Positions 37,693-40,826 of a stretch of 64,000 bases of DNA are shown piece after piece. Every line of letters begins with the position of its first letter. Positions within the stretch are counted from its first letter, which is position 1. This stretch comes from Solimonas aquatica (GTDB lineage: Bacteria > Pseudomonadota > Gammaproteobacteria > Nevskiales > Nevskiaceae): assembly GCF_900111015.1 (NCBI RefSeq), contig NZ_FOFS01000003.1, positions 248,001 to 312,000 on the forward strand. Reading direction: 5' to 3'. The notes beneath the pieces are model-generated. The model was given only the letters and a program-made list of their open reading frames with translations, did no database searches and was not told where the DNA came from. A program made the translations under genes and the position numbers.

Positions 37693-37720
37693 TTGACCGC
37701 AGGCCCTGATGGGCTACACT
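37693..37720 (+). promoter_or_regulatory. sigma70-type promoter of panBC
   Basis: TTGACC (37693-37698) and TACACT (37715-37720) are spaced by 16 bp. Transcription from about 37727 gives a leader of roughly 160 nt that contains both tandem hairpins before panB. Confidence 0.6.
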
Positions 37721-37746: not shown

Positions 37747-37830
37747 CGGGTGCATGTCTTGGTGGGCCGCCCGCCGCTGTCTGATAAGGTCGTGAACGCA
37801 GGCGCATGTCTTGGTGGGCCGCCGGTGTTC
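37747..37830 (+). promoter_or_regulatory. Tandem pan-type RNA hairpins in the panB leader
   Basis: Two copies of the core AUGUCUUGGUGGGCCGCC start at 37754 and 37806. Copy 1 (37747-37773) closes with CGGGUG/CGCCCG. Copy 2 (37794-37830) closes with GAACGC-A-GGCG pairing CGCC-G-GUGUUC. Inside each, G-U-C can pair with G-G-C, leaving a YAU bulge on the 5' side and a 6-nt loop. The same unit occurs in tandem before panD with different but still paired stems. Tandem hairpins with conserved bulged A before panB/C/D genes are the described form of the 'pan' motif; the assignment needs a covariance-model search. Confidence 0.75.
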
Positions 37831-37888
37831 CCCCGCAGGCCTTGCCGCCCTGGCTACGGATCGGGCTGGCATCGCCGGAGCGCCAACA

Positions 37889-38743
37889 ATGAATAGCCGC
37901 AAACCCGTCAACATCGCCGAGCTGCGCCGCATGCGTGCGGCCGGTGAAAAAATCGCCTGTCTCACCTGCTACGACGCCAGCTTCGCGCTGCTGCAGGATC
38001 GCGCCGGCGTCGATCTGATTCTGATCGGTGACTCCCTGGGCATGGTGATTCAGGGCGGCAACACCACCACGCCGGTGACCGTGGAGCAGATCAGCTATCA
38101 CAGCAAGTGCGTGGCACCGCATCTGCAGCGTGCGTTTCTGGTCGCCGATCTGCCGTTTCTCTCCTACGCCACGCTGGAGCGCGCGCTGGATGCCTCGCAG
38201 CGGCTGATGCAGGAAGGCGGCGCCAAGATGGTGAAGCTGGAAGGTGGTCGCGAGCAGGCCGCCATCGTCGAATATCTTTCGGTGCGCGGCGTGCCGGTCT
38301 GCGCGCACCTGGGTCTGCAGCCGCAGTTCATCCACAAGATGGGCAACTTCAAGGTGCAGGGTCGCGAGCAGGCGGCGGCCGAAGCGATGCTGCACGACGC
38401 GCAGGTGCTGGCGCAGGCCGGCGCCGATCTGCTGTTGCTCGAATGCATTCCGGCGGAGCTGGGCGCGCGCATCACCGCGCAGTCGCCGGTGCCGGTGATC
38501 GGCATCGGTGCCGGCAGTGGCGTCGATGGCCAGATTCTGGTGCTGCACGATCTGCTCGGCATCTCGCCGCAGGTGACCCTGGGGCACACCCCGCGCTTCG
38601 TGAAGAACTACATGGCCGGCGCGGTGGCGCAAGGCGAGAAGGGCGGGGTGATCGAGGCGGCGATCGCCGACTATGTGCGCGAGGTGAAGTCCGGCGCCTA
38701 TCCCGCGCCCGAGCACTGCTTCGAAACCACGGTGAAGCGATGA
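37889..38743 (+). CDS. panB: 3-methyl-2-oxobutanoate hydroxymethyltransferase
   Basis: This 284-residue enzyme makes ketopantoate from 2-oxoisovalerate and methylene-THF, the first step of pantothenate synthesis. [12 protein letters not shown] and [15 protein letters not shown] (Mg-binding Asp) are near the N-terminus. VKLEGG and [11 protein letters not shown] follow, then the catalytic Glu in [11 protein letters not shown] and [17 protein letters not shown]. The ATG at 37889 has GGAG upstream and overlaps the stop of a short frame opened at the second hairpin core. The stop overlaps the panC start (ATGA). The leader carries tandem pan-type hairpins. Confidence 0.95.
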
Positions 38744-39585
38744 ACACGGTCCATACCGTCGCCGAGTTGCGCGCCACGCTGGCCGGCTGGCGGCGACAGG
38801 GTGAGCGCATCGCCTTCACGCCCACCATGGGCAATCTGCATCAGGGGCATCTGCGCCTGGTCGAGCAGGCCCGGCTGCGCGCCGCACGCGTGGTGGCCAG
38901 CGTGTTCGTGAATCCGCTGCAGTTCGGTCCCAATGAAGACTTCGACCGTTACCCGCGCACGCTCGCGGCGGACGCCGACAAGCTCGCCGCCGCCGGCTGC
39001 GATCTGCTGTTCGCGCCCAGCGTTGCGGAGATGTATCCGCAGGGGCGCGAGGGTCTGACCACCATCACCGTGCCGCGCCACGCCAGTCTGCTGGAAGGCG
39101 CGTTCCGGCCCGGGCATTTCGATGGCGTGGCCACGGTGGTGAACATCCTGTTCAACCAAGTGCAGCCGGACGTGGCCTTGTTCGGCGAGAAGGACTATCA
39201 GCAGTTGCAGGTCATCCGGCAGATGGTGGCGGATCTGCATCTGCCCATCGAGATCGTCGGCGTGGCCACCGAACGCGAGGCCGACGGTCTGGCGATGTCC
39301 TCGCGCAACCAGTACCTGCAGCCCCAGGAGCGCGCGCAGGCGGCCCTGATTCATGCCAGCCTGCAGGCGGTGGCCGAGGCGCTGCGGGCAGGCCGTCGCG
39401 ACTACGAGGCGCTCTGCGCCGAGCAGGCTGCGCGACTGGCCCAGGCGGGTTTCCGCGTGCAGTACCTGAGCCTGCGGGCATCCGATCTGGGGGCGCCGGC
39501 GTCCGATGCACGGCAGCTCCGCGTGCTGGTCGCGGCTTATCTGGGCAATACCAGATTGATTGACAACATCGCCATTTCCCTTTGA
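38740..39585 (+). CDS. panC: Pantothenate synthetase
   Basis: This 281-residue ligase joins pantoate and beta-alanine with [18 protein letters not shown] holds the HIGH-like motif (HQGH). [36 protein letters not shown] and MSSRNQYL (KMSKS-like SSRN) are all in place. The ATG lies in the panB stop codon, so panBC is one translationally coupled operon. panD follows 226 bp later with its own promoter and hairpins. Confidence 0.96.
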
Positions 39586-39648: not shown

Positions 39649-39677
39649 TTTAAAGACAGAGCGAAATGATCTAGAAT
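39649..39677 (+). promoter_or_regulatory. sigma70-type promoter of panD
   Basis: TTTAAA (39649-39654) and TAGAAT (39672-39677) are spaced by 17 bp in an A/T-rich patch after panC. The start of transcription would be near 39684, giving a leader of about 128 nt that contains the tandem hairpins. Confidence 0.6.
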
Positions 39678-39711: not shown

Positions 39712-39793
39712 CGGGCGTATGTCTTATTGGGCCGCCCGCCGTCGTCCGAACCGTAAAACGTCGCGCGTATGTCTTGGTGGGCCGCCGACGTTT
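39712..39793 (+). promoter_or_regulatory. Tandem pan-type RNA hairpins in the panD leader
   Basis: Two further copies of the panB-leader unit have cores at 39719 and 39769. Copy 3 (39712-39738) closes with CGGGCG/CGCCCG and has loop UUAUUG instead of UUGGUG. Copy 4 (39756-39793) closes with AAACGUCG/CGACGUUU, a sequence unrelated to the stems of copies 1-3 yet fully paired. The core G-U-C/G-G-C helix and YAU bulge are kept. The last stem ends 18 nt before the panD ATG, close to where a ribosome binds. Compensatory change among four copies is strong evidence for selection on RNA structure. Confidence 0.75.
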
Positions 39794-39811: not shown

Positions 39812-40192
39812 ATGCAACTGCACATGCTCAAATGCAAGCTGCATCGTGCCTGCGTGACTCATGCCGAACTGGATTACGAAGGCTCCTGCGCCATCGACGC
39901 CAAGCTGCTCGAACTCGCCGGCATCCTGGAGTTCGAACAGATCCAGATTTACAACGTGGGCAACGGTGAGCGTTTCACCACCTACGCCATCAAGGCCGAG
40001 CCCGGCTCGGGCATCATTTCCGTGAACGGCGCCGCCGCCCACAAGGCGCGCGTCGGTGACCGCGTGATCATCTGCGCCTACTCGCAGATGGACCCGGCCG
40101 CCGCCCGCAGCCACGCGCCGCGTCTGGTGTATCTGGACGAACGCAACCGCGTCACCCGCACCGGCAACACCATTCCGGTCCAGGCCGCCTGA
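39812..40192 (+). CDS. panD: Aspartate 1-decarboxylase
   Basis: This 126-residue pyruvoyl enzyme makes beta-alanine from aspartate for pantothenate. Self-cleavage falls at Gly24-Ser25 in [45 protein letters not shown] and [13 protein letters not shown] are characteristic. The ATG of [13 protein letters not shown] is the family start; the in-frame codons upstream run through the hairpins and are not family sequence. No good ribosome-binding site is visible, in line with control by the adjacent hairpin. Confidence 0.95.
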
Positions 40193-40205: not shown

Positions 40206-40826
40206 GTGAGCAGCGTCCAGGCGTGGTTTCCCACGCTGATCTATTGCGAGCGCCTGCAACGGTCTTCGTTGCGGGCCTTCAATGCTGATCTGCTGGACGC
40301 CTGCCAGCGTATCCGCGAGCACGACGAAGCCGGCCGGCGCTGGTCGCAGCCCAACTATCCCCTGGGTTACACCAGTTACGGCTCGCTGGATCGCCTGCAC
40401 CAGTTCGCCTCGCCTTTCGAGGAGCTGCGCCAGCGCCTGGAGCCGCATGTGCGGCGCTATGCGCGCGCGCTGTCCTGGAATCTGCGCGGCGGGCGACTGC
40501 TGATGACCGATTGCTGGCTCAACGTCATGCCGCGCGGCTGTGCGCACAGCTTTCACATCCATCCGCAGGCCGTGATCAGCGGCACCTACTATGTGAAAAC
40601 CCCGCGTGGCTGCAGCGGCCTGAAGTTCGAAGACCCGCGTCTGGACTCGTTCATGGCGGCGCCGCCGCGCCGCGCCAGCGCCCGGCCGGCGCTCAAGCCC
40701 CACATTCAGTACCCGGCGCAGGCCGGCAAACTGATTCTGTTCGAGAGCTGGCTGCGGCACGAGGTGCCGGCCAATCCGGTCGACGAAGAACGCGTGAGCA
40801 TCAGCTTCAACTACCACTGGTGCTGA
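40206..40826 (+). CDS. TIGR02466-type putative 2-oxoglutarate/Fe(II) oxygenase
   Basis: This 206-residue protein reads as a DSBH-fold oxygenase. AWFPTLIYCERL is the typical N-terminus of this family. SFHIHPQAVISGTYYVK supplies the metal-binding His, and LFESWLRHEVPANPVDEERVSISFNYHW (in pieces) the distal His and the 2-oxoglutarate Arg. The substrate is unknown. A GTG at 40206 with AAGG close before it is the only reasonable start. It follows panD by 13 bp and may be read with it, though no link to pantothenate is known to me. Confidence 0.78.
   Translation: MSSVQAWFPTLIYCERLQRSSLRAFNADLLDACQRIREHDEAGRRWSQPNYPLGYTSYGSLDRLHQFASPFEELRQRLEPHVRRYARALSWNLRGGRLLMTDCWLNVMPRGCAHSFHIHPQAVISGTYYVKTPRGCSGLKFEDPRLDSFMAAPPRRASARPALKPHIQYPAQAGKLILFESWLRHEVPANPVDEERVSISFNYHWC

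Follow-up and report, generated by a model that had tools for sequence, protein, structure and literature searches.

The pan motif is found in the leaders of panB, panC and panD, where it usually forms two tandem hairpins with a conserved bulged A in the stem, and its authors suggested that it serves as a dimeric protein-binding site (Weinberg et al. 2010, PMC2864571). In the searchable literature we found no paper identifying its ligand since the motif was described in 2010. The element that we describe here is like the pan motif in that tandem bulged hairpins occupy the leaders of panB and panD, and yet its hairpin is built differently. The genuine pan RNAs that we compared carry two bulged adenines, one on each strand of a GUAUC/GAAC-type stem, whereas the new hairpin has a single YAU bulge on the 5' strand, a GUCU-UNNU-GGGC head and conserved U.G wobbles, and has no bulged A on the 3' strand. 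Its carriers, too, are confined in our data to Nevskiaceae and a single neighbouring family. It is a different RNA from the pan motif, alike in layout and target genes only.

Protein-binding translational operators are known from mRNA leaders, ribosomal-protein leaders and phage coat-protein hairpins being examples. The new element resembles them in its compact bulged hairpin, its conserved loop and the adjoining ribosome-binding site, and differs from them in its tandem copies, in its target, vitamin B5 synthesis, and in that its binding protein is putative. Tandem riboswitches (reviewed in PMC9481103) likewise place two similar units in the leader of a biosynthesis gene; compared with these, the new unit is much smaller and lacks a clear expression platform, and any metabolite binding by it is hypothetical. 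We found no prior description of this hairpin in the openly searchable literature, and the element looks like an undescribed control element of vitamin B5 (pantothenate) gene messages in one bacterial family.

Hairpin units in the two pan leaders of Solimonas aquatica

The window, by which we mean the whole 64-kb stretch of S. aquatica DNA that was analysed, contains four copies of a bulged hairpin of ~25 nt, arranged as one tandem pair before panB and another before panD, and all the features described below are on its + strand. The panB leader has exact copies of the core ATGTCTTGGTGGGCCGCC at 37754-37771 and 37806-37823, 52 nt from start to start; the panD leader has an exact copy at 39769-39786 and a copy with 2 mismatches at 39719-39736. 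These four are the only matches to the core at ≤3 mismatches in the entire window, while shuffled windows gave a mean of 0.15 matches and a maximum of 3, none of 100 shuffles reaching 4. Every copy folds alone into an outer stem, a 3-nt bulge on the 5' side (CAU or UAU), a 4-bp inner helix GUCU/GGGC and a UNNU loop. The initial annotation had placed two cores 52 nt apart between the promoter at 37693-37720 and panB, had assigned to each its own stem with a bulged inner helix and had noted the same unit before panD, all of which agrees with what we find. Its description of tandem hairpins in front of panBC also stands, but the count has to be amended, as there are two separate leaders, of panB and of panD, and hence four units rather than two.

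Each pair sits just 3' of its own sigma-70-like promoter and the hairpins are therefore expected to be transcribed. In the panBC leader, the promoter (TTGACC-16-TACACT, 37693-37720) is followed by a candidate 5' hairpin, P0 (37722-37746), proposed from a fold that scores weakly in panB leaders (mean z -0.7). Unit 1 (37747-37773), CGGGUG-CAU-GUCU-UGGU-GGGC-CGCCCG, is supported by core match, fold, alignment and R1, the covariance model of the new hairpin with which genomes were searched, and unit 2 (37794-37830), whose extended outer stem is GAACGC/GGUGUUC, by core match, fold, R1 and arm swapping. The spacer between unit 2 and panB (37831-37888) can fold (P3) and holds a Shine-Dalgarno-like GGAG at 37877-37880. 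It leads to panB (37889-38743), encoding ketopantoate hydroxymethyltransferase, and to panC (38740-39585), encoding pantoate--beta-alanine ligase, identified by the NCBIfam equivalogs TIGR00222 and TIGR00018, respectively.

The panD leader begins with the promoter TTTAAA-17-TAGAAT (39649-39677), and its P0 (39681-39710), UGCCU..GUGAC-N4-GUCAC-AGGCA, is supported by its fold and by relatives. The first bulged hairpin, unit 3 (39712-39738), is backed by core match, fold and R1, and the second, unit 4 (39756-39793), with the outer stem AAACGUCG/CGACGUUU, by arm swapping as well. panD itself (39812-40192; aspartate 1-decarboxylase, NCBIfam equivalog TIGR00223) follows, and directly after it on the same strand, before pgi, lies a gene for a TIGR02466-family protein (40206-40826), the function of which is unknown in that model. 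Neither window leader holds a plausible terminator between the hairpins and the pan genes. Rfam families other than the pan motif gave chance matches only in the window.

Conservation, covariation and distribution

The 48 distinct hairpins collected from related genomes align without gaps to the consensus GGGYG / YAU bulge / GUCU-UNNU-GGGC / CRCCC, which is fixed at the loop uridines, throughout nearly all of the inner helix and over most bulge positions; the U.G wobble and loop positions U23 and U26 are invariant. The closing-stem pair Y14-R32 appears as C-G, U-A or U-G and is never mispaired (0/48). When changes at pair 14-32 in both units were counted on the panD tree, we obtained 8 double compensatory changes, 15 one-sided changes and a single break, and the unit-2 pairs 11-35 and 12-34 added 5 further double changes on the same tree. 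In the longer outer stem of the second hairpin, which is freely variable in sequence yet paired, the native 3' arm outperforms arms swapped in from other leaders in 44 of 52 leaders, by a mean of 2.6 kcal/mol; arm swapping between leaders gave no support for an extended stem on unit 1. Because variation is slight at most pairs, the general shuffle control gives the pair counter only moderate strength, and leaders of related species are not independent; the weight of the argument lies on arm swapping and on the changes counted along the tree. Covariation in homologous panB and panD leaders, which the initial annotation had proposed to check, is seen as compensatory changes at pair 14-32 and in the unit-2 outer stem. 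In whole-leader folds the mean pair probability is 0.36 for unit 1 versus 0.62 for unit 2, so that unit 1 is predicted to be the less stable. A natural variant is seen in one panD leader (L033, near 1550), the second unit of which keeps the bulge and the head while its closing stem is aberrant (CGUUAG/CAUACG).

The element is associated with pan genes throughout. There are 73 distinct tandem leaders, a count that includes two leaders entered twice in shifted register; 55 precede panD, 17 precede panB and one runs off its DNA stretch. Conservation of the cores away from pan genes, the outcome named at the outset as contrary to a pan leader RNA, is not what we observe, as the downstream gene is panD or panB in all 72 tandem leaders in which it can be read. 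In related genomes the element is always tandem, with a unit spacing of 46-53 nt throughout, and a TANNNT -10 box precedes the first core of other leaders by ~49 nt (median). Compensatory changes and a fixed gene context, the marks of a conserved structured cis-regulatory RNA, are both present, and the element is almost certainly a real conserved structured RNA of pan leaders, which very probably acts in cis on pan expression.

Within the order, 57 of 85 genomes have an R1 match to the hairpin, these being nearly all of one family and one genome of another, with none in the other four families; the only two genomes of the main family that have no RNA match also have no detectable panD. Under stricter filters and with few candidates scored, R1 detected no hairpin in the other 368 genomes of the class sample or in the other 397 genomes of the phylum sample, and the panD leaders of 8 sister-family genomes hold nothing similar to a diverged element. 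A scan for the tandem pattern in 84,980 species found the element in Solimonas, Sinimarinibacterium, Fontimonas, Nevskia, Stagnimonas, Hydrocarboniphaga, Panacagrimonas, Polycyclovorans and Algiphilus. The carriers are Nevskiaceae-type genera plus one genome of another family. The remaining exact pattern matches, in unrelated organisms, lack a panD hit in their vicinity and appear fortuitous, and weak pattern matches elsewhere in the genome that holds the window are not scored by R1. Nevskiaceae-type tandems before panD or panB were also seen in the assemblies CAJCJH01 (L107, L127), CAJCJI01 (L121) and PNMW01 (L149), titled Rhodospirillales, Verrucomicrobia and Lysobacteraceae, titles that probably misname the bins.

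Start codons behind the second hairpin

In all panD leaders the panD start codon lies 29-45 nt past the core of the second hairpin, mostly 30-37 nt. In the eight Nevskia-type panB leaders (L084, L098, L100, L107, L114, L121, L125 and L130), panB lies 90-143 nt away, and in each of them an upstream ORF (uORF) of 20-38 codons begins with ATG or GTG 28-32 nt past the core, preceded closely by a purine-rich AGGA, AGGT or GGGAA, and ends in a stop codon that overlaps the panB start (ATGA or GTGA; 8/8). The first codons of the uORF read MQLT, MQPT or MQAT in several of these leaders, and PanD starts with MQLT in many relatives. Because of this resemblance to the PanD N-terminus, the Nevskia-type panB leader may have arisen as a copy of the panD leader including its start.

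No consistent uORF was found in Solimonas-type panB leaders. Here the spacer folds into the P3 helix, with z values of -3.6 to -1.1 in 6 of 8 leaders, and collapsing P3 leaves 15-28 nt of spacer; in the panB leader of the S. aquatica window z is ~0 and P3 is not established there. The base of P3 often pairs a C-run beside unit 2 with the Shine-Dalgarno sequence (panB leaders L029-L035 and L074), and P3 sequences differ between species. At the other end of the leader, relatives also have a P0 in their panD leaders, differing in sequence (mean z -1.5, below -1 in 26 of 37). This third hairpin, 3' of the -10 box and 5' of unit 1, contains in many leaders GTGAC-N4-GTCAC or TGTGAC..GTCACA, which resembles a CRP-type DNA palindrome. 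The accessibility of the Shine-Dalgarno sequence in panD leaders is unremarkable, with no signal of sequestration.

Based on our data we propose, with a probability of roughly 0.55, that the element is a lineage-specific cis-regulatory RNA in which the tandem hairpins form a double protein site governing translation initiation of panB and panD. At the level of sequence, the proposal draws on the position 3' of promoters, the structure and its covariation, the tandem layout, the gene specificity, the spacing to the start codon and the overlap of the uORF with panB. As two compact bulged hairpins in the 5' leader would make up a double binding site, and as the two sites are nearly identical, compact, separated by a fixed spacing and marked by conserved U.G wobbles, an RNA-binding protein acting as a dimer or oligomer and reporting pantothenate/CoA status would be the most likely binder; the invariant U.G wobble and loop U23 and U26 suit recognition by a protein, and we consider a protein ligand fairly likely. 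Binding would control how translation starts at the ribosome-binding site immediately 3' of the second hairpin. In panD leaders the controlled site would be panD's own start codon, in Nevskia-type panB leaders it would be the uORF start, with panB following by translational coupling, and in Solimonas-type panB leaders P3 would usually loop out the extra sequence and pair near the Shine-Dalgarno. Since the three arrangements converge in having a start codon shortly after the second hairpin, translation is probably the regulated step, and the direction of control would be feedback repression. The weaker fold of unit 1, the ordinary Shine-Dalgarno accessibility in panD leaders, the z value of P3 in the window, the lack of a consistent uORF in Solimonas-type leaders and the putative status of the binder all count against this proposal.

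Alternative readings and significance

A tandem riboswitch, in which each hairpin binds a pathway metabolite (pantothenate, CoA, ketopantoate or beta-alanine) and the pair controls translation, is a possible but unlikely reading. Tandem aptamers occur in other riboswitch classes, and the leader position, the exclusive association with one pathway and the strongly conserved bulge and loop are all as a riboswitch would have them. Against this, the conserved part is merely ~20 nt in a simple hairpin, and the fixed spacing of 46-53 nt between two identical sites suits a dimeric protein better. As for an expression platform, there is no terminator, strand exchange is not seen in panD leaders, where the Shine-Dalgarno is not specially sequestered, and P3 pairs near the Shine-Dalgarno in several Solimonas-type panB leaders. 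That the hairpins are an independently evolved minimal tandem aptamer class, directly sensing a metabolite of the pantothenate or CoA pathway, seems to us rather improbable; if true, it would be to our knowledge the first pantothenate-pathway riboswitch.

The identification of the hairpins as the pan motif, made in the initial annotation, did not hold. The search of the window with the Rfam covariance model proposed there gave no match to RF01749 either at the gathering threshold or at E≤10, and the hairpin has one bulge in place of two opposed bulged adenines. In 41 relatives, most of them with the new element, RF01749 had no matches at E≤1 while the Bacillus subtilis control was detected, and R1, applied to 15 genuine pan loci, reached a best E of 3.5, with none above noise. 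With no detection in either direction, the suggestion of a close relative holds no further than a likeness in layout and target genes. A divergent member of RF01749, sharing common ancestry with the pan motif, would account for the same genes, the tandem bulged hairpins and the conserved A in the bulge, but not for the failed searches or for a single 3-nt bulge without the bulged A on the 3' strand, and intermediates are absent from the sampled class and phylum; we regard such an origin as very unlikely.

Even less probable is that the repeats are DNA operators, that is, transcription-factor sites near the pan promoters. Sites close to promoters and repeated identical cores are typical of operators, whereas the core has no internal palindrome and is part of the transcribed leader, complementarity is maintained in the freely varying outer stem of unit 2, pair 14-32 covaries, and a conserved distance separates the core from the start codon or the uORF start. 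Finally, a leader peptide acting by ribosome-mediated attenuation, for which the core could be read as ATG TCT TGG TGG GCC GCC (MSWWAA, as in the three exact window copies), is refuted by the in-frame TAG in the loop of many copies, where ATG TCT TAG ends the reading at the third codon. In addition, some relatives have CTG or ACG for ATG, and there is no attenuator terminator.

Returning to the double protein site, its variants, namely the panD start, the coupled uORF and the looped-out spacer, provide testable predictions, all with translation initiation as the target, and the hairpin itself is a small and well-defined bait for finding the regulator. That a second, unrelated-looking element of tandem bulged hairpins precedes the same genes elsewhere suggests that paired hairpins are a repeated solution for panB and panD, here in a family of soil and water bacteria.
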